A DNA stretch of 21,910 bases, taken from IMG/VR virus record IMGVR_UViG_3300009529_000056, positions 1 to 21,910 of that record; one strand, 5' to 3'. The translations under genes were made by a program, and so were the position numbers. Of the stretch, positions 6,008-21,864 are shown piece after piece. Under the pieces are notes generated by a model. The model saw nothing but the letters and a program-made list of their open reading frames with translations. It made no database searches and was not told the DNA's origin. Numbering within the stretch: position 1 is the first letter of the stretch; each line of letters starts with the position of its first letter. The stretch comes from a virus.

Positions 6008-7840
6008 TTAATCCCCCTTTTTCTTTATATTATGACCCTTACCGCGCACAGGCTTTTTTGTTGTTTCTTTTAAAGTTGTTTCTGTAGCTTGTTTTCTTTC
6101 TTCCTGTCCCCCTTCTTCAGGTTTAGCAGAGATATCAGATACACCACGAGCGGCGGGGTTTTCTCCTACTTCTTGTTGAATCGGTGATTGAGCGAGTAAA
6201 ATACGTCGTGCCCGTTCTGCGTGATCTTCACGAGCTTGTAAATATTCATCATCAGGAAAACCAAGAGCCATGGAAGCAGTTTGTTCGCCACAAAGTCCAG
6301 ATTCCTTAGCTTGAATAATAATTGCTGGATCACTTGTTGTATATTCAGCTTGTTCAATTTCACGAGAAATTTTAGCCATTGTATCCACACTAATTTTACC
6401 ACCAAGCAAAGCTATTACAATATTTTTTGCTAACTCTTTTTTTATTGTTTTTCCTGGTACGGTATACATTAAATCAGATAATTTTCCAGCCTCTTCAATA
6501 CGATCTTTATCATCTTTAAGACTGTAACGATCTGGATATTTAACAGTAGCAATATAACGCTTTTTAGCATTCTTATCTTCAAAAGCTGCCCAATGATGAG
6601 CTATTTTTCGTTCAGCATTTTCTAAAACTAAACCAATATACGAAAGTCCAGCCTCTAAACCTTGATCACTTAATTTGAGTGCTTCGGCAGATGTTACCCG
6701 TCGTCCTACTTTATTCTGTACTGCTAAATTAACCAATTTACGGATATCATCTTCAAGTTTTTCTTGCAATTTAATTGATGCTTCTAAAGGCTCAGGAGAC
6801 GGATGGATAAATGCAGGGGGGGCTGCACGTAAATCATAAATACGCCCGTGAGAAGGTCCTATACGTGCTTCCCTAGCCATTGCTCGTTGACCACCAGTTG
6901 TAGCGGTACCGTCAGGATTTACACCATGCTTTAAATGATCACCAACAGCCCGCATATCTTGTTGTTCAATATAAAATGGAAAATTAGCTTTCAAAGCATA
7001 AGCAACGTCACTTGAACAAAGATTAAGTAATGCAACTTGATGTTTTGTTACATCTTTTATTAAACTAGCACCAATATCTAATATAACAAAGGGAATTTGC
7101 CGCAAAGCAAGAGTAATTGGTTCATCACCAATTGCTGGTTCCCCATTAGGGGTAATGGGATCACCCTCGTTATCGTAAAACTGAACGCGGACAAAACCAT
7201 CATCTTTGTCAATCCATAAAAGTCGATACCGTTCATATTCCCCACTCGGTAATTCAATAGTAGTGGCATCATGACTTACAAAATCAAGTCCTATATCACG
7301 TAAAAGAAGTGCTTGATATTCATTAGGATCTTCTGGCTTTGTACAAGACCAAGAGAGGATGTCTTCTACCTTATAACGATAAAGATATGGGCGAGCTTTT
7401 CCAACATCGGCAAGAGTTGGACCAGCAATACGTGGCGAATCAATAAATACACCAACTTTACCCATAACTAATAATTCAGTAAGAATGTTAACACCGACAA
7501 ATGCATTCATAGATGTGCCACGCATATCAACGCCACCAGATTCTCCTGCACATGCTTGCATATATGCCTGACTACCACCCTGTCGAACAGTATCTCGCAT
7601 TCGTTGAAAAATTGCATTTCTAATATCATTAATAGCAACTTTAACATATGTTGGAGTCGGTGATATATCCATTCGATTATAATAATCTGTATCAGATTCA
7701 CGCTCAGAGAATTTTTTTAGATTATTTTGAACAAAATAACTGCCGCCTTCATAACATTCACGCCAATCTTCCCACAAAGACATATCATAGGCAATAGAAG
7801 GGTGACGCGCATCAATAATTTTGAACTTATCCTCTGTCAT
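6008..7840 (-). CDS. Portal protein (DUF4055-like)
   Basis: The 610-residue protein has the size, position and pattern of a phage portal subunit, the ring at the head vertex through which DNA passes. Its N-terminal half has the wing and clip signature LWEDWRECYEGG, then ELLVMGKVGVFIDSPR and PYLYRYKVEDILSWS. Further on, QIPFVILDIG precedes LLNLCSSDVAYALKANFPF. A long helical region holds LEDDIRKLVNLAVQNKV and the stem-like ISREIEQAEYTT segment. The last 40 residues are highly basic (KKPVRGKGHNIKKKGD). I associate this pattern with DUF4055-type portals. GGAGG precedes the ATG, which overlaps the TAA of the upstream HNH gene (TAATG). Confidence 0.82.
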   Translation of the reverse strand: MTEDKFKIIDARHPSIAYDMSLWEDWRECYEGGSYFVQNNLKKFSERESDTDYYNRMDISPTPTYVKVAINDIRNAIFQRMRDTVRQGGSQAYMQACAGESGGVDMRGTSMNAFVGVNILTELLVMGKVGVFIDSPRIAGPTLADVGKARPYLYRYKVEDILSWSCTKPEDPNEYQALLLRDIGLDFVSHDATTIELPSGEYERYRLLWIDKDDGFVRVQFYDNEGDPITPNGEPAIGDEPITLALRQIPFVILDIGASLIKDVTKHQVALLNLCSSDVAYALKANFPFYIEQQDMRAVGDHLKHGVNPDGTATTGGQRAMAREARIGPSHGRIYDLRAAPPAFIHPSPEPLEASIKLQEKLEDDIRKLVNLAVQNKVGRRVTSAEALKLSDQGLEAGLSYIGLVLENAERKIAHHWAAFEDKNAKKRYIATVKYPDRYSLKDDKDRIEEAGKLSDLMYTVPGKTIKKELAKNIVIALLGGKISVDTMAKISREIEQAEYTTSDPAIIIQAKESGLCGEQTASMALGFPDDEYLQAREDHAERARRILLAQSPIQQEVGENPAARGVSDISAKPEEGGQEERKQATETTLKETTKKPVRGKGHNIKKKGD

Positions 7841-8466
7841 TATTTTTCCTCCGATATGCCACTGCTCGTCTGATACGCCATAAATCCAGTCGTACTTGCA
7901 GCCACTTCAATCCTATTCTCTCTAGAATCGACCTGGGATGTTTCTTTATCATGATGCATCTCTAAATAATCTGCGGCCTTCCGAAGAAGGTCTGGATTAT
8001 CTTTCATACAACCAAGAGCTTTATTACAGTGAGCACATAAAAGCCCTCTAATTTTACCAGTTTCATGGCAATGGTCAATAGCAAAACGAATTACATCCTT
8101 TCTCCCCACATCCTCTGAACCACAGATTGCACACTTATCTTCTTGAGCAAGATGCATTTTATTATATTCTCTTAAACCAATTCCATACATTGATTTCATA
8201 TTCCAATCAATCTTTTTATCAGCATTTTGATTTTCTCGTTTCCAACGAGAAACACATTTTTTATAACGACTAACTCTATCATCCCTTGTCCTTCGATCCT
8301 TATGAAAAGCATCTAAAGATTTTATCTTATTACAACCGCGACAAAATCTAAATTGATAACATTGAATACAAATTTTTGCATACTTATCTCGTGTTCGACC
8401 ATCATAATCAAATTTACTCAATAATTTAATTTTTTTACATTTACTACACTGCTTAGTTTTTATCAT
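7840..8466 (-). CDS. HNH endonuclease, T4 endonuclease VII-like
   Basis: The 208-residue protein has two zinc ribbons at the N-terminus (KQCSKCKKIK with CIQC, then FCRGCNKIK with KKC). Next comes a linker WNMKSMYGIGLREYNKM and the endonuclease VII core CAICG, FAIDHCHETGKIRGLLCAHC. His/Asp of IDHCH form the expected metal site and the Cys pairs the zinc site. Such proteins cut branched DNA or act as free-standing homing enzymes. It starts inside the terminase stop (ATGA) and ends on the portal start, so it sits exactly between two genes that are usually adjacent. Its last about 40 residues (after YLEMHHDKE) have no family match and end in the portal's ribosome binding site. Confidence 0.85.
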   Translation of the reverse strand: MIKTKQCSKCKKIKLLSKFDYDGRTRDKYAKICIQCYQFRFCRGCNKIKSLDAFHKDRRTRDDRVSRYKKCVSRWKRENQNADKKIDWNMKSMYGIGLREYNKMHLAQEDKCAICGSEDVGRKDVIRFAIDHCHETGKIRGLLCAHCNKALGCMKDNPDLLRKAADYLEMHHDKETSQVDSRENRIEVAASTTGFMAYQTSSGISEEK

Positions 8467-10978: not shown

Positions 10979-11322
10979 TAGTCTTCCTCTTCATTATCAA
11001 GATCATTCAACATTAAAAACAGCCACACTATTCCAAGCGAACCGAAACATGTTAATGTAATAACCATAAAAATCATTATAATTATCGTACTAAGTGGGTA
11101 AATACCCCAATAAAATGTACAAATAATTATTACTGCTAACCAATGCGATAAACAATAAGGACAATGAATTAATTCTTCCGCCCGTAAACCACACTTAGAA
11201 ATTAGCGCTCGCAATTTCTTTGTAATATTTGATTTTGTGATTGTCATAGAGATACTTGCTGTTGCAAGTGCTATGAATATCATTTCTAAGAGTAACTTAA
11301 AAGATATCATAATCAGCTTCAT
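10978..11322 (-). CDS. Membrane protein with a CPYCLSHW motif, DUF1360-like
   Basis: The 114-residue protein has three hydrophobic segments: SFKLLLEMIFIALATASIS (7-25), WLAVIIICTFYWGIYPLSTI (about 61-80) and IIMIFMVITLTCFGSLGIVWLF (about 80-101), then an acidic end (LNDLDNEEED). The motif HCPYCLSHWLAV at 53-64 lies at the start of the second segment. This Cys-x-x-Cys-Leu-x-x-Trp pattern before a transmembrane helix is what I recall for DUF1360 membrane proteins, of unknown function. The start overlaps the thioredoxin-like gene by 26 bases. Downstream Met codons at residues 5 and 14 are alternative starts, none with a clear ribosome binding site. Confidence 0.6.
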   Translation of the reverse strand: MKLIMISFKLLLEMIFIALATASISMTITKSNITKKLRALISKCGLRAEELIHCPYCLSHWLAVIIICTFYWGIYPLSTIIIMIFMVITLTCFGSLGIVWLFLMLNDLDNEEED

Positions 11323-11800
11323 TATGTTTTAAGTATTTTTTAATCTGATGCTCAGTTGTTAAACCAATAAAACGTTTAACTTCTTTATCGTTACCCCGAA
11401 TAATAATTGTAGGGAAAGCAGTAACACCCATCCTTTCTGCTTGTACAGGATATTTTTCTACACAAAAAATATGAATATCGTACCCCTCACCTATCAATTT
11501 GGTTACAATTAGTTTCATCTCTTTACACGGGGGGCAACCTTCCATACACCAAAAAAGCATACAATTGGGCTTAAATTTTAATTCTTGTTCCGTATTAATT
11601 ATTTGCGGCGGCATTTGATACTTAACTGGTTTCCCATCAACCATTTCTGGTATAGAAGGCGTTCTTACTGATTGTTCAATTACTCCACAAGCTTTTACTT
11701 GATTAATACAATCAGGTTGAGTAGTTTTATTATCAGATGCTATAAAACAAGCAAATGAAATATAAATTATTCCTAAAATAGTAATTGTAATCTTTTTCAT
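11297..11800 (-). CDS. Exported thioredoxin-fold protein with CPPC active site
   Basis: The 167-residue protein begins with a signal sequence or anchor (MKKITITILGIIYISFACFIAS). A mature part follows with a Cys-rich lead (DCINQVKACG) and a thioredoxin fold: MLFWCMEGCPPCKEM has the redox pair C89/C92 (Cys-Pro-Pro-Cys), and GVTAFPTIII supplies the cis-proline P130. The remaining helix, QIKKYLKHN, closes the fold. Such proteins reduce or form disulfides or bind partner proteins outside the cytoplasm. It lies directly downstream of the intein-bearing cysteine peptidase and before the CPYC membrane protein. The start has a weak ribosome binding site. Residue C18 could be a lipid anchor, but the lipobox (SFAC) is poor. 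Confidence 0.82.
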   Translation of the reverse strand: MKKITITILGIIYISFACFIASDNKTTQPDCINQVKACGVIEQSVRTPSIPEMVDGKPVKYQMPPQIINTEQELKFKPNCMLFWCMEGCPPCKEMKLIVTKLIGEGYDIHIFCVEKYPVQAERMGVTAFPTIIIRGNDKEVKRFIGLTTEHQIKKYLKHNEADYDIF

Positions 11801-11812
11801 TATAACACACTT

Positions 11813-14800
11813 TTACCAAATCTGATAATCTGGTAGCTTAATTCTTGGATATCCCACATATCCTGAAAGGGCAACGCTATCTCCTTGTCGTAACGCCGCA
11901 TCAATAATACTTGCATCAACCCAAAAACTACCCCCCGGTTGTCCATGTCGAGTAGGACCACTTACCCAATGAGAATTACCAGTCCAAACAGCACGCCCAT
12001 TTCGCCTAATATAAATTACCTGATTTGGAACTGTGACACAAAAAACTTCACCTTGATAAGGTAATAAAATAGGATTATACACTATACGTTGCTCAAGTGA
12101 TTTTATTTTAATCCCTATTCGATATTCAATGTGTCGAGTAATTCCACCTGTACCATTATTACGTCCACGCCTATCTATATATGAAATATCCCCTGCAAAA
12201 CCACAATGTAAGAGAAGGCGTTGAAAATCGTCAGCCAATTGTTTCGATGATGTATAATATGTTCGTTTAATACCTGTTAATCCTTGACTAATTGATCCAT
12301 CACCAAGCATTAAAGCATTATAGAGAATTCTTAATTGACGCGCTGAACAAGTCCAAATATAATCAGGTAAATATTTTTCATGTGCCTTACCAAAAGATTT
12401 TAATTCTTGTAATAATTCTTTTGAATGATTACGAAAATTATTTCTATCTTCATGAAATTTGAATGGCATTTTTGCTAAACAAGTCCGAATATGATTACGT
12501 CCTTCTTCATTTACTTGACAAATTCCAACCTCCCTGTTTATTCCATTTTTAACACCTTGAAAATATGATTGAGTTTCAGTAGTATATCCTTCTGATATAT
12601 AGTACCCAAGAAATTCTAACCATAAATCCATAGAAATTTCAAAATCACCTATTTTAAAAATTCTTTGATCTTGTTGTAAATTACATGCATCTTTTTTCAT
12701 TTTAATAGTTTGAATACATTCATCAGTTTGTTGTAAAAACCATTTAGTTGGTATAGAATTTTTCGCAATATAAAGATTATGATTTGGTGTTACAGCTAAA
12801 TCAATATCCCTTGATTTATGATGCCATAGATATCCATCATAAGAATATCGATGGTAGCAAGTAGGAAATTGATATTCAAGTTCGTGTGTTTTCCGATTTA
12901 AAGTAGCTACTTTCTCAATCTTTTTCAAATTTTTAAAAAGCTTCCAACCATATTCTGTAAGAATTTCTGTTTGTTCATCGACACAACCCCAGCTATTCTG
13001 AACAAGGGCACCAGGTCTTCGATATGCATCATCAATGCCTAAAATAATCATTGAGTGATACCAAGGACGACGTGATCGACGTAAAAAACCATCCCTATCT
13101 CTAGTGCTATTAAAACCAACACTACTGGATATTGCAACAGGGTAACCATTCGCTACAGCATCGCGACATTCTTCCCATGATCGAACAATAGAACAAGTTT
13201 TAACGGGGTGTAATTTACATAATGGTTCTAATTCATCAGGTACACCTTGTCCACGACGCCCTAATTGACGGGCTTTAGCACCACTGTATTCTGTAAAATC
13301 ATATGCCCCATCTAGATAAGGTAATCTAAGTAAAATACCCCAATCTTTTATAAACTCAGCTGCCCACACACCCATTGAACCATCGCCACGAATTCTACCC
13401 CCTCCAACTTCAATTCGTGACCCAGCATAAATAAGTTCAGTAGCACATTTTGTAACCCATCGTTCTGGTTTTAAATGCATCAAAATTTGAACCGCTGTTA
13501 ATACATCAGTACCAAGACCAAATGAATGTGCAACACAATTATGGACTGAGTAACTATTTGCAATAAATGAGTGATCATTTTCTACATCGAGACAATATAC
13601 ATGAGTCGCAACTTTAGAAATAGTAGAAATTGATTGTAATTTACACTGTAATCCTAAAAGATTTCTTTTCTGTTCCGGGTAAATTTTATTAGATATCTCA
13701 GGATATAATTTAACAGTATCCGCAACATTGAAACAAATTATATAAGCCTGAGCCTTACCCTCTTTAACTTTTATTTTGTTAGTTTTAGGGTTAAAGCCAC
13801 AATAATTTGCAAGACGTAACATATCTGTAATCATACTCTTTGACACACTTACACCTGAGCAATTTGGTCCTCGTCGAGAATCATACTTACGTTGTTTTCT
13901 CCCTGGGCAACTACCATCACCTTCAAGCCAACCTAATAAACATTCAAGTTGTACATCTCTTGATGCTGTTAATATTTCAGTTGGTATCTTTTTAGTATAA
14001 ACATTACCAGGCATAAGATACTTAAAAAACATAGCAACCGCTTTATTTTGACATCTCACATATTGTACAGTTGGTTTACTTGGTACTGAATAAATACTAC
14101 ACTTAATACTAAAAATTTGATCTATGAAAGTTGCAATTTTGTTAGCAAAATCATTTTCTTTTGACCCCAAATTAAAATCGACCCTACACCACTGGCCAGA
14201 ATTCCATTCAGTACCCTTTGCTCGACTACAACCCCCCTTTGCCAAATAAGCACCAATTATATAAGCTAATTTAGCATCAAGATGAATAAAACGATTTACC
14301 CATTTTGAAGAATGTTTTGCTCGTAATTTATCATCTTTAACTTCTGCATCAGGACAAATATCTAATAAATCCCATATTTTAGTAAGTTCTGGACCTCGAT
14401 ATCTTTGAATAAAGACTTTATCACTAAGATTCAAAGTGCCTGCTGGTTTCCATTGACCTTCATTAACCAAAATTAAGTGATCTGGCGTACAAACAATATC
14501 TTCAAGAATATCCGCAGCTTGAAAACGAATCATATGTTTATTATAAGGCTTCCGAATGGTTCGGGTAACTTTTTGTGATTGACCTAAATGACTTAATACC
14601 ATTTCTCCAACTTGAATATGTTCAATTTTCTTCCGACTACCATCTGCCATTGTTATCTTAGTCCCGGCTATTTTACAATCACCAATTTCCTGATAATGTG
14701 AAACAAGTGGACTTCCAGTAATTCGTTCATAGTATTTCCATAAAAGAACTACCTGCCCCTTCCCTGTTCCCTCAATTTGTTTATTTAATTGGCTTAAATA

Positions 14801-14986
14801 AGCATACTTGTTCTCTTGAACAAAAGCCTTTCTAGCCTCTATGTCATCAACCCAGCCACAAAATAACGGGCGGGTAGTATTTTCATATAATTTCGCTGGG
14901 GCCCCGCTGACAAATTTAGGTTTTAAGCCTAAAACAAATCCGCCTGTTATTCCTAACAAGTATCTTAATAATTCTCGCCTGTCCAT
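11813..14986 (-). CDS. Papain-like (C1) cysteine peptidase precursor with two inteins
   Basis: From ATG 14986 (GGAGG at 14992-14996, five bases away) the precursor has 1057 residues. The TTG at 14998 merely precedes that site. It opens with a twin-arginine-like signal, MDRRELLRYLLGITGGFVLG. The exteins form a C1-type peptidase: oxyanion Gln Q99, catalytic Cys C484 at the head of CVAHSFGLGTD, His H644 in WYHSMIILGID and Asn N664 in NSWG. Removing residues 104-483 and 668-1004 leaves about 340 residues with Cys 104, His 264 and Asn 284, which fits papain spacing. Before splicing, the active-site Cys is severed from its Gln loop, and the C-terminal strand GGSFWVDASI from NSWG. A prohead protease role is unlikely because of the export signal. 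The substrate is unknown; host envelope or cell surface protein is plausible. Confidence 0.85.
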   Translation of the reverse strand: MDRRELLRYLLGITGGFVLGLKPKFVSGAPAKLYENTTRPLFCGWVDDIEARKAFVQENKYAYLSQLNKQIEGTGKGQVVLLWKYYERITGSPLVSHYQEIGDCKIAGTKITMADGSRKKIEHIQVGEMVLSHLGQSQKVTRTIRKPYNKHMIRFQAADILEDIVCTPDHLILVNEGQWKPAGTLNLSDKVFIQRYRGPELTKIWDLLDICPDAEVKDDKLRAKHSSKWVNRFIHLDAKLAYIIGAYLAKGGCSRAKGTEWNSGQWCRVDFNLGSKENDFANKIATFIDQIFSIKCSIYSVPSKPTVQYVRCQNKAVAMFFKYLMPGNVYTKKIPTEILTASRDVQLECLLGWLEGDGSCPGRKQRKYDSRRGPNCSGVSVSKSMITDMLRLANYCGFNPKTNKIKVKEGKAQAYIICFNVADTVKLYPEISNKIYPEQKRNLLGLQCKLQSISTISKVATHVYCLDVENDHSFIANSYSVHNCVAHSFGLGTDVLTAVQILMHLKPERWVTKCATELIYAGSRIEVGGGRIRGDGSMGVWAAEFIKDWGILLRLPYLDGAYDFTEYSGAKARQLGRRGQGVPDELEPLCKLHPVKTCSIVRSWEECRDAVANGYPVAISSSVGFNSTRDRDGFLRRSRRPWYHSMIILGIDDAYRRPGALVQNSWGCVDEQTEILTEYGWKLFKNLKKIEKVATLNRKTHELEYQFPTCYHRYSYDGYLWHHKSRDIDLAVTPNHNLYIAKNSIPTKWFLQQTDECIQTIKMKKDACNLQQDQRIFKIGDFEISMDLWLEFLGYYISEGYTTETQSYFQGVKNGINREVGICQVNEEGRNHIRTCLAKMPFKFHEDRNNFRNHSKELLQELKSFGKAHEKYLPDYIWTCSARQLRILYNALMLGDGSISQGLTGIKRTYYTSSKQLADDFQRLLLHCGFAGDISYIDRRGRNNGTGGITRHIEYRIGIKIKSLEQRIVYNPILLPYQGEVFCVTVPNQVIYIRRNGRAVWTGNSHWVSGPTRHGQPGGSFWVDASIIDAALRQGDSVALSGYVGYPRIKLPDYQIW
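11975..12985 (-). mobile_element. Intein 2 (LAGLIDADG), inserted after the NSWG motif
   Basis: This in-frame insert of 337 residues (C668-N1004 of the precursor) starts CVDEQTEILTEYGWKLFKNL, a typical splicing block A. Block B is LAVTPNH with H736. The end, VPNQVIYIRRNGRAVWTGN, is followed by extein Ser1005 as the +1 nucleophile. The penultimate residue is Gly rather than the usual His, a variant I recall from phage and bacterial inteins ending in WTGN. A homing-endonuclease part lies between, with LEFLGYYISEG (acid E799) and LYNALMLGDGS (acid D896), so both LAGLIDADG helices keep their metal-binding acid. Host site: directly after NSWG in the peptidase. Confidence 0.9.
13538..14677 (-). mobile_element. 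Intein 1 (LAGLIDADG), inserted at the catalytic cysteine
   Basis: This in-frame insert of 380 residues (C104-N483 of the precursor) begins CKIAGTKITMADGSRKKIEH (block A). Block B is IVCTPDHLIL with H170. The C-terminal splicing blocks are HVYCLDVENDHSFIA and SYSVHN, with the standard penultimate His and terminal Asn. The next residue, extein C484, is both the splicing +1 nucleophile and the predicted catalytic Cys of the peptidase. Two LAGLIDADG-like helices are present: LAYIIGAYLAKGG, where Lys250 replaces the acidic residue, and LECLLGWLEGDGS, which keeps D357. The endonuclease may therefore be weakened or inactive while splicing residues look intact. Confidence 0.92.
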
Positions 14987-15001: not shown

Positions 15002-15877
15002 TTACTTTACAGCATTGGATGGAGTTACCGCATCAAAAAGAGCAGCGTAACTTCGCATTCCCTTAGCAATTTCTCGCCATGCTACAGCATGTTGTTCTGG
15101 TGTAACGAGAATCCCAGCCTCCGCACGGGACTTTAACTCTGTTTGAATTTCACGAAGAACGGGGAGCCAATCTGTTATTGAATCACCTAATGCTTGTCGA
15201 TTTGCATTAACTGTCGCCTCAATAATTGACTCAGTATCAGTTAAAACCCCTGCTGAAATCTGAGCAGCTACACCTTCAAAACTACCAGCAACATACAAAG
15301 TTTCATATTTAGAGCGTTGTGCTTGAGAACACCAATATGCTACCCATTCAAAAAGTACAGAACTGTCCGGCTTCCGTACATCAGGAATATTAGGATTGGG
15401 GGGATGGGGAGGGTCGGGGGGATTGGGAGGACCGGGATCACCACCTTCAATCGTTACAATATGGGTTACAATATCTATTGTACCTTGATAAGCACAACCA
15501 ACAATAAACATATATTCGCCAGGATGCCTAGCACTAAACACCGCTCGTTGACCCTCATCATAAACTTCAAAATCAATTGAATTAGGTACAAGCACCCACT
15601 TAAATGAGTCAGCTGTACTCTCAGATACATCAAATCGAACAAGTTCCCCCACTTCTGCTGATTCTTGAGCATTGATAACAATATCTGCTACTGTACCAGG
15701 TTCAACATTATCAGGCGCGTGTGATGCAGTAAGATTAGCATATATATTTGTACCCATATTCGTAACTGGGGAAGATGTGATGGATTCATATTGCATATAT
15801 GAACCAACTAATACACTGGTTCCAAATGTAACTGCAAGCATCAACGCAGCGGCTTGAAGATTTTTCTTAATATTCAT
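15002..15877 (-). CDS. Exported Pro-rich protein with an Ig/PKD-like domain
   Basis: The 291-residue protein has a signal or anchor (MNIKKNLQAAALMLAVTFGTSVLVG), a spacer, then a beta-sandwich candidate of about 65-145 (VGELVRFDVSES, FKWVLVP, ARHPGEYMFIVGCAY, IVTHIVTIEGG), which resembles PKD or Ig-like domains. A Pro-rich linker (147-166, PGPPNPPDPPHPPNP) joins it to a helical C-terminal domain with FEWVAYWCSQAQRSKYETLY and WREIAKGMRSYAALFD. It ends two bases before the peptidase's ribosome binding region and starts in an ATGA overlap with the 57-residue gene. It probably acts outside the cytoplasm together with the peptidase. I know no exact family. Confidence 0.7.
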   Translation of the reverse strand: MNIKKNLQAAALMLAVTFGTSVLVGSYMQYESITSSPVTNMGTNIYANLTASHAPDNVEPGTVADIVINAQESAEVGELVRFDVSESTADSFKWVLVPNSIDFEVYDEGQRAVFSARHPGEYMFIVGCAYQGTIDIVTHIVTIEGGDPGPPNPPDPPHPPNPNIPDVRKPDSSVLFEWVAYWCSQAQRSKYETLYVAGSFEGVAAQISAGVLTDTESIIEATVNANRQALGDSITDWLPVLREIQTELKSRAEAGILVTPEQHAVAWREIAKGMRSYAALFDAVTPSNAVK

Positions 15878-19704: not shown

Positions 19705-21864
19705 TTACCGTAAGCCCATCGCTTTCAGCAATTTAACTTCAACCTCAGCATTTTTATCCTGAATTGCTGCTTCCTTGGCTAATGCTCGAAGAGTTACGTT
19801 TTGTGGCATACGAACATGCGATGCATGTGTTCCAGCAATAGTGATTGTTGCGGGTGTCACACCTTGCAGTGGTGGTGTCCCACTAATAACGCCGGCAATA
19901 TTCAAAACAGCCCAACCAAGTCGATTAGTTTGCCCATTAGTTGTTATAGTTATAGCACCAACTGTCCCGCCGCCAAGATCAACATCATTGATTATGGTAG
20001 TAGTATGATTAAGTTCATCAACAGAATCACCATCAAAAGTTAAGACAAGAGCATTCGTAGTTAACGGGCCACCAGAAACTGTAATGTCACCTGGTGAATA
20101 AGCAGTTATGTTACCATTTGCAGCCGTATCAACTATTGTTTGAATAGCGGCATTACTTGAACTGTATTCAATATTTGCTGTATTAAATGCAGCTTCACCA
20201 TTTACATTAATTGTAAGTGTAAAGTTACCGCTTGTCACTGCAACGGGGTAAATTGCAATTGATTGCACTTCATCTACTAGAGTAACACCTTCATTTGTTG
20301 TAGATATGGAACCGGCTGTTCCAGGACCGGTTAAATCAACATTAGTAATTACAGTATCACCCTGATTAGTTCCATCTACAGAGAAACCATCAAAAGTTAA
20401 GACAACAGCAGCATTAGTAAGATCACCACCGGTAACAGAAATATCACCATTTACCCAGCCAGTAATATTTCCGGTCGCAGCTGTATTAATGGCACCTTCG
20501 ATAGCAGCCGCATCTGCATTATAAGCAATGTTATCTGTTAGAACTGCGGTATTAGTAGTTACATTAATTGTAAGTGTATAATTACCACCATTAGCCGTAC
20601 CATTAAATGTTGCAACTGATTGAACTTCATCTGTGGCGTTAACACCTGGCGTAGTTGTAGATATAGCACCAAGTGTCCCGTTTGCCAAATCAATATTAGC
20701 AGTTGTAACTTCACCTTGATCGGCCATATGCACAGAATTACCGTCATATGTTAAAACAAGAGCAGCATTAGCAAGATCACCACCAGAAACAGAAATGTCA
20801 CCATTCGTCCAGCCAGTTACATTACCAGTCGCGGCTGTATCAATCAAACCTTCAACAGTGGCAGCAGTCGAACTCCATAGAATATTAGCTGTTGTAGCAG
20901 CTTCATCATTTACATTAATTGTAAGTGTGTAATTACCACCATCAACTGAGCCATCAAATACTGCAATTTCTTGAACTTCATTAGTACCAGCGGCACCTTG
21001 ATTTGTTGTAGATACAGCACCAACTGTTGGCTCACCTTCTAAATCAATATCATTGAGTACAACTTGTGTATGATTAGCTTCATTAACAGAAGCACCATTA
21101 TACGTTAAAACAATGGCAGCATTAGCAAGATCACCACCAGTAATAACAATGTCACCATTTACCCAGTCAGTAATATTTCCGGTTGCGGCTGTATTAACAA
21201 TACCTTCAATAGTAGCTGCATCTGAACTCCATAGAATATTTGCTGTATCAAACGCATCTTCACCTTCTACATTAATCGTAAGTGTATAGTTGCCACCATT
21301 AACTGTACCTGCATAAGGCTCAATTTGTTGTACTTCATCAACAGGGGCAACACCTTCATTTGTTGTAGATACAGCACCAACTGAGCCACCGGCAAGATTA
21401 ACATCATTAATTACTGCAGCACCGTGATTTGCTATATTAACAGAACTACCATCATATGTTAAAACAGCGGCACCGGCATTGAGATCGCTGGTTAATGCAA
21501 CAGAAATATCACTAGCTGTCCAATCTGTTATGTTTGCCGCATTTGCAGCTGCATCGATTGCTGCTTCAACGGTAGCTGCATTTGCATCATATTCAATGTT
21601 CGCTGTTGTAAATGTAGTCCCATCTCGTAAAGTAAACGTGAGTGTAAACTTACCACTTGTTACTGTACAGTTATATGCCGCAATCGATTGAACTTCATCC
21701 GCAGCCGCGTAACCAGATGGATAATCAGGATCACCTTGTAAAGCTTTTAATTCCTTTAGATTCTTCGTAATTACACGATGAACGGCTACAGGACTACGAC
21801 CTGTAGTTGCATTACCCGTATCAATTGTCTGAGCATTTGCTAAAATATCAGTATAGACGCCCAT
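19705..21864 (-). CDS. Repeat-rich appendage protein with five DEVQ repeats
   Basis: The 719-residue protein has a 55-residue head (MGVYTDILANAQTIDTGNAT onward), five tandem repeats of about 118 residues (56-647) and a 72-residue tail beginning RLGWAVLNIAGVISG and ending in a helix (ALAKEAAIQDKNAEVEVKLL). It has no signal peptide or membrane segment. The repeats are beta-stranded (GGNYTLTINVN, ALVLTYDG) and may form a fibre or decoration on the virion. AGGAG is nine bases before the ATG. It is the first gene of the run visible on the right side. I recall related repeats from planctomycete and phage proteins. Confidence 0.75.
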   Translation of the reverse strand: MGVYTDILANAQTIDTGNATTGRSPVAVHRVITKNLKELKALQGDPDYPSGYAAADEVQSIAAYNCTVTSGKFTLTFTLRDGTTFTTANIEYDANAATVEAAIDAAANAANITDWTASDISVALTSDLNAGAAVLTYDGSSVNIANHGAAVINDVNLAGGSVGAVSTTNEGVAPVDEVQQIEPYAGTVNGGNYTLTINVEGEDAFDTANILWSSDAATIEGIVNTAATGNITDWVNGDIVITGGDLANAAIVLTYNGASVNEANHTQVVLNDIDLEGEPTVGAVSTTNQGAAGTNEVQEIAVFDGSVDGGNYTLTINVNDEAATTANILWSSTAATVEGLIDTAATGNVTGWTNGDISVSGGDLANAALVLTYDGNSVHMADQGEVTTANIDLANGTLGAISTTTPGVNATDEVQSVATFNGTANGGNYTLTINVTTNTAVLTDNIAYNADAAAIEGAINTAATGNITGWVNGDISVTGGDLTNAAVVLTFDGFSVDGTNQGDTVITNVDLTGPGTAGSISTTNEGVTLVDEVQSIAIYPVAVTSGNFTLTINVNGEAAFNTANIEYSSSNAAIQTIVDTAANGNITAYSPGDITVSGGPLTTNALVLTFDGDSVDELNHTTTIINDVDLGGGTVGAITITTNGQTNRLGWAVLNIAGVISGTPPLQGVTPATITIAGTHASHVRMPQNVTLRALAKEAAIQDKNAEVEVKLLKAMGLR
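19924..21699 (-). repeat. Five-copy coding repeat, about 355 bases each
   Basis: In protein terms each copy starts with (D/N)EVQ-x-(I/V)A, continues with GNYTLTINV, a strand (A)N-I-x-(W/Y), a helix A-x-(I/V)-x-x-x-(I/V)-x-TAA-x-GN-(I/V)-T, GD-I-x-(I/V)-GG-x-L, A-x-VLT-(F/Y)-(D/N)G-x-SV and ends GA-(I/V)-STT-x-x-G. Copy starts are at residues 56, 175, 294 and about 410 and 529. Copies 2-4 are most alike, and the first and last have diverged most. The DNA copies show clear similarity but are not identical. Confidence 0.8.

Follow-up and report, generated by a model that had tools for sequence, protein, structure and literature searches.

Two inteins in a predicted papain-like peptidase of an uncultivated tailed-phage lineage, one of them bordered by the presumed catalytic cysteine

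The inteins of RtcB sit before an active-site cysteine, i.e., the active site of the host protein includes their +1 residue or neighbours of it, a situation that is also encountered at the phage locus described here. The same likeness extends to DNA polymerases, topoisomerases and helicases, in which inteins are found at catalytic or ligand sites (PMC5874633), and insertion into a catalytic site is common among inteins in general (PMC5874633, PMC5784728). Inteins within peptidase subunits have been reported for the ClpP and Lon proteases (PMC5784728), while the inteins of mycobacteriophage TerL and of other phage proteins (PMC5050341) share with those of the present locus that they are phage-borne, are associated with homing endonucleases, reside in functional motifs of phage-specific proteins and occupy several insertion sites per family. 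The homing cycle through which such elements pass has also been described (PMC1654191).

The window, i.e., the whole stretch of virus DNA analysed here (21,910 bases; positions 1-21,910 of IMG/VR record IMGVR_UViG_3300009529_000056), represents a structural module of a tailed phage with genes for a P22-type coat protein, a scaffold, a portal and a GpA-type terminase, which bears out the phage origin attributed to the peptidase gene by the first-pass annotation. The window is probably a fragment, since nine related records span 26 to 125 kb. The intein-containing precursor gene of the papain-like peptidase is located at positions 11813-14986 on the minus strand and encodes 1057 residues, with an ATG at 14986, a GGAGG sequence five bases upstream of it and a stop codon at 11813-11815. 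Its upstream neighbour encodes a membrane-anchored secreted-type protein (15002-15877, minus strand) and its downstream neighbour a thioredoxin-like protein with a leader (11297-11800, minus strand; Pfam Thioredoxin, E 8.5e-7), synteny being conserved for both. The gene order, i.e., anchored secreted-type protein, peptidase, thioredoxin-like protein, often a DUF1360 protein, terminase and portal, is kept in approximately 30 contigs, and the peptidase gene is a core gene of this uncultivated lineage of tailed phages, which are viruses of bacteria. No recognisable homologue was found in any cultured phage of the collection searched. Two free-standing ORFs of the endonuclease VII/HNH type (773-1075 and 7840-8466, both on the minus strand) are present amid the structural genes of the window, and an endonuclease VII/HNH-like ORF is also found between terminase and portal in the relatives L004 (7285-7737) and L005; these ORFs are further mobile endonucleases in the structural module. 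The window also encodes, at 19705-21864 (minus strand), a tail-type protein of 719 residues, whose translation contains several copies of a repeat of ~100 residues each.

Alignment with intein-free orthologues from viral contigs and conservation among homologues divide the precursor, always on the minus strand, into an N-extein (residues 1-103; 14678-14986), intein 1 (residues 104-483, 380 residues; 13538-14677), a middle extein (residues 484-667; 12986-13537), intein 2 (residues 668-1004, 337 residues; 11975-12985) and a C-extein (residues 1005-1057; 11816-11974). The domain matches returned for the precursor (Pfam Intein_splicing, E 5.9e-9, and LAGLIDADG_3, 4.8e-10; NCBIfam intein_Cterm, 3.6e-7) are far from chance. 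Removal of residues 104-483 and 668-1004 yields joined exteins of 340 residues and restores a continuous alignment with the intein-free orthologues, two of which (L002 and L003) are 67-69% identical to the joined exteins across all 340 residues and read through both junctions as continuous YQEIGD-CVxH and NSWG-xxW. As expected of an intein, the insertion is in frame and absent from homologous genes, the first-site insertion being absent in 26 of the 33 proteins on the peptidase tree; in these 26, both junctions can be recognized exactly. The first-pass annotation had placed two independent LAGLIDADG inteins at exactly these borders and had recognized the cysteine of the peptidase as the +1 residue of the first; both statements hold, Cys484 being located at the junction, invariant and the presumed nucleophile, and the intein-free homologues that it suggested looking for do possess extein junctions at the same places.

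The cysteine at junction 1, the WxHx(M/L/Q) motif and NSWG are present in every compared homologue row that covers them, in agreement with the earlier expectation that Cys, His and Asn would be retained. The annotation had also described the catalytic centre as broken by the two inteins, with the second ending after NSWG. While the cysteine is indeed at junction 1, the triad is not split, as Cys484, His644 and Asn664 (of NSWG) all reside within the middle extein; similarly, intein 2 does adjoin NSWG, but it begins after this motif and ends in WTGN immediately before Ser1005. Intein 1 lies between Cys484 and the invariant Gln99 of the N-extein, the presumed oxyanion-hole residue, while intein 2 opens the NSWG/xxW loop and cuts off the last 53 residues.

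For the host protein, a structure model of the 342-residue, intein-free orthologue L002 was built from 17 sequences (pLDDT 75.6, pTM 0.80). A Foldseek comparison of this model with the PDB returned 208 matches at E <= 0.001, the best being xylellain (E 7.8e-12), with Lpg2622 and cathepsins also among the best, which upholds the papain-like fold proposed earlier; each of the 50 best matches listed is a cysteine protease or the zymogen of one, and the matches in BFVD include phage Peptidase_C1 proteins. In papain, the catalytic cysteine starts a long central helix, and the long central helix of the L002 model (107-127) likewise starts at Cys107, in a protein in which Cys, His and Asn occur in that order with an NSWG motif. 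An alternative assignment of Cys484 to the structural cysteine of papain, which derived from a weak hmmsearch alignment, was ruled out, as L002 Cys107 begins the central helix and follows the invariant Gln. Judged by its sequences the family is divergent: Pfam Peptidase_C1 (PF00112) scores 17.4 bits on L002, below the cut-off of 20.7, and matches 3 of 17 relatives at E <= 0.1, while the invariant Gln is located five residues before the Cys, as compared to six in papain. Because of this sub-cut-off score and spacing, the protein is called papain-like here without being assigned to family C1A.

The N-terminus carries twin arginines (residues 3-4) followed by a hydrophobic stretch and represents a putative Tat-type leader, as the first-pass annotation had suspected; the RR pair is invariant in an alignment of 19 rows, and Pfam TAT_signal matches 4 of 17 relatives (best E 0.0011). 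A role of the peptidase as a lysis enzyme was considered: a distant phage relative of the peptidase adjoins an endolysin gene, which is suggestive only, and searches for Amidase_2, Phage_lysozyme and SLT returned no match in nine related records. A cellular branch of the family is represented by leaderless, intein-free homologues in Mucilaginibacter chromosomes (L080, 7977-8903, and L081), which have no phage neighbours of the type found in the window. Two relatives (L005 and L027) have a frameshift in the peptidase ORF, reflecting either a sequencing error or a pseudogene.

Intein 1, which is recognized by Pfam and NCBIfam and is present at this position in L015, L017 and L028 as well, possesses the full canonical set of splicing residues, i.e., Cys104 as its first residue, Thr167 and His170 of the TxxH motif, the penultimate His482, the terminal Asn483 and Cys484 at +1. 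Of the acidic residues expected in each of its two LAGLIDADG helices, the second motif retains Asp357, while the first contains Lys250 (AAG; 14237-14239, minus strand) where the three relatives encode Glu (GAG/GAA). Loss of a LAGLIDADG acid normally abolishes cleavage, and the endonuclease of intein 1 in the window is therefore probably dead, although a sequencing error could also account for the Glu-to-Lys change, which comes from one contig. Intein 2, which L028 also carries at this site and of which a part is visible there in L029, has the core residues Cys668, Thr733 and His736 (TxxH), Asn1004 and, at +1, Ser1005, and its endonuclease appears intact, both LAGLIDADG acids (Glu799 and Asp896) being kept. 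The penultimate and block-F histidines, which are usual but not universal, are both missing from intein 2, whose C-terminal end reads VWTGN: they are replaced by Gly1003 and Gln989, respectively. The C-terminal cleavage of intein 2 may therefore be slow, but the loss is probably tolerated, since its orthologues lack the same residues (Gly and Gln in L028, Gly and Arg in L029); a Gly-Asn ending is also found in intein-2 relatives within other phage genes. One further phage protein (L030) contains two inteins of the intein-2 type in a single ORF.

Carriers were located by scanning the viral_contigs collection with the peptidase and with intein 2, while a scan of viral_contigs with intein 1 alone, for which window-specific peptide patterns were used, returned no match. 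Among the relatives, the first (Cys) site is polymorphic: it is either empty, occupied by a full-length intein (the window, L015, L017 and L028) or occupied by a mini-intein without endonuclease, of 158 residues in L071 and 130 residues in L073; L072 starts inside an intein at this catalytic-Cys site. The ends of the mini-inteins resemble those of intein 1 (37-48% identity over the first 75 residues and 58-88% over the last 24) and not those of intein 2 (20-24% and 38-42%, respectively), and the mini-inteins are for this reason probably endonuclease-less alleles of intein 1. The 83-kb phage record L028 independently carries both inteins, while in L029, whose contig does not reach the upstream part, the second site is occupied by intein 2. 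The L028 phage also encodes many host-metabolism genes, including those for glucose-6-phosphate dehydrogenase, IMP dehydrogenase, a sugar epimerase and band-7 proteins (L087-L091).

On the tree of 33 peptidases (26 without a first-site intein, seven carriers), the Cys-site intein requires seven changes for its seven carriers, which is no better than shuffled labels. In the close pair L073/L067, in which one site is empty, DNA alignments reach the intein from both sides and break there. Between carriers, synonymous identity of the exteins is at the level expected from codon usage (z -0.5 to 1.7), while that of the inteins is above it (z 1.9 to 5.0); for example, for the window versus L028 the z values are 2.6 and 4.5 for the two inteins and -0.5 for the exteins. 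The inteins thus diverged later than their host genes, and this retention of synonymous identity in the inteins but not the exteins indicates that they have moved horizontally, although the number of carriers compared is small. Both inteins are under purifying selection in the comparison of the window with L028 (dN 0.23 and 0.18; dS 1.39 and 1.16).

We consider it likely, at a probability of roughly 0.87, that two mobile inteins, unrelated to each other, have invaded a papain-like peptidase with a Tat leader in the two stretches where its coding sequence is most conserved; they would be homing parasites that are removed by traceless splicing. The sequences themselves show what this reading draws on: splice junctions and motifs, sites that are empty in relatives, a scattered distribution and a later divergence of the inteins. 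From established intein biochemistry, the 1057-residue chain would be expected to fold two Hint domains, each of which would excise itself, intein 1 through Cys104 and Asn483 with the presumed catalytic Cys484 of the host as the final acceptor nucleophile, and intein 2 through Cys668, Asn1004 and Ser1005. The outcome would be a traceless peptidase of 340 residues that could then be exported. Tat normally exports folded proteins, and splicing is therefore expected to precede export. The precursor itself is probably inactive, since the splicing centre would hold Cys484 away from Gln99; a structure prediction of the full precursor (pLDDT 48) was too poor for use. Persistence of the inteins would be due to their endonucleases, through which the gene segment is copied into alleles that lack it, active-site codons being the most conserved targets for such homing. 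The empty, active, mutated and endonuclease-free alleles observed at one site match the states of the homing cycle (PMC1654191). Furthermore, the preference of inteins for conserved functional sites (PMC5874633, PMC5784728, PMC2814812) is sufficient to explain the positions observed here, in line with the caveat in the first-pass annotation that parasite insertion alone would be enough.

That annotation had proposed splicing as a zymogen switch. In the version of a switch weighed here, conditional splicing, governed by redox, metal or host state, would silence the peptidase in the cytoplasm and activate it in time, the inteins being kept for this purpose. The probable inactivity of a precursor whose nucleophile is occupied is consistent with such a role, as are the persistence of mini-inteins without endonuclease at the same site, the thioredoxin-like gene that adjoins the peptidase gene in most relatives, and the conditional splicing known for other inteins (PMC6195587, PMC7360933, PMC5790916). 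However, most orthologues in the same gene order lack an intein, each carrier needs a separate change on the tree, the inteins are younger than the exteins, and residues -1 to -3 (IGD) do not include a cysteine that could form the redox trap known from other inteins. Scattered and dispensable inteins, sisters with empty sites, mini-inteins and a mutated endonuclease are features of a homing cycle; nothing in the comparative data requires conditional splicing, and we regard the switch as very unlikely. Little credence is likewise given to a weaker form, in which slow or conditional splicing of intein 1 and of the mini-inteins would time the activation of the exported peptidase, a parasite having become an activation delay in some lineages.

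That the host protein has a papain fold but another activity, e.g., that of a transglutaminase-like or a binding protein, is improbable: although the sub-threshold Pfam score, obtained for the first alignment member, and the Gln-to-Cys spacing could be read in this manner, every homologue covering them has Cys, His and Asn arranged as in papain and within the matching motifs (WxHxM, NSWG), and the PDB and BFVD matches point to peptidases. A broken gene, i.e., a loss of splicing in at least one intein that leaves the window with a dead peptidase, would accommodate the histidines missing from intein 2 and the Lys in the endonuclease motif of intein 1, which indicates some decay. This reading seems highly improbable in view of the intact junction nucleophiles and terminal Asn residues, the family-invariant residues retained by the extein, the purifying selection on both inteins and the Gly-Asn ending that intein 2 has in common with its relatives in other phage genes.

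Compared with the systems described at the outset, invasion by homing parasites as proposed here concerns a different type of host protein. Unlike TerL and other phage intein hosts (PMC5050341), this host is not a nucleic-acid enzyme but a secreted-type papain-like peptidase; the intein-bearing proteases ClpP, a serine peptidase, and Lon, which is ATP-dependent and unrelated, are not papain-like (PMC5784728). RtcB belongs to another host family, as do the DNA polymerases, topoisomerases and helicases, and at the present locus a second intein adjoins the motif that contributes the Asn to this active site. With the bacterial papain-like proteases xylellain and Lpg2622 the phage protein shares its fold, but only 14-15% sequence identity, and it differs from them by its Tat-type leader and its Gln-x4-Cys spacing. 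The Peptidase C1A of Thermoanaerobacterium phage THSA-485A, linked through the distant homologue L006, is also a phage-encoded papain-family peptidase, yet it is very distant, adjoins an annotated endolysin and has no intein. The occurrence of empty, intein-bearing, endonuclease-mutated and mini-intein alleles at a single active-site codon in one phage lineage provides a compact natural series in which to test whether an active-site intein is never more than a parasite or can turn into a regulator, and the series is equally suited to the question of how precursor splicing squares with Tat export of a folded enzyme. No report of inteins in cysteine, papain-like or phage peptidases was found in the literature searched, i.e., open-licence papers; the mechanism and the genetics are familiar, while both this host family and the twofold use of its catalytic cysteine are new to that literature. 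A papain-like peptidase hereby joins the known intein hosts, with one residue that would be both the splicing acceptor and the presumed catalytic nucleophile.
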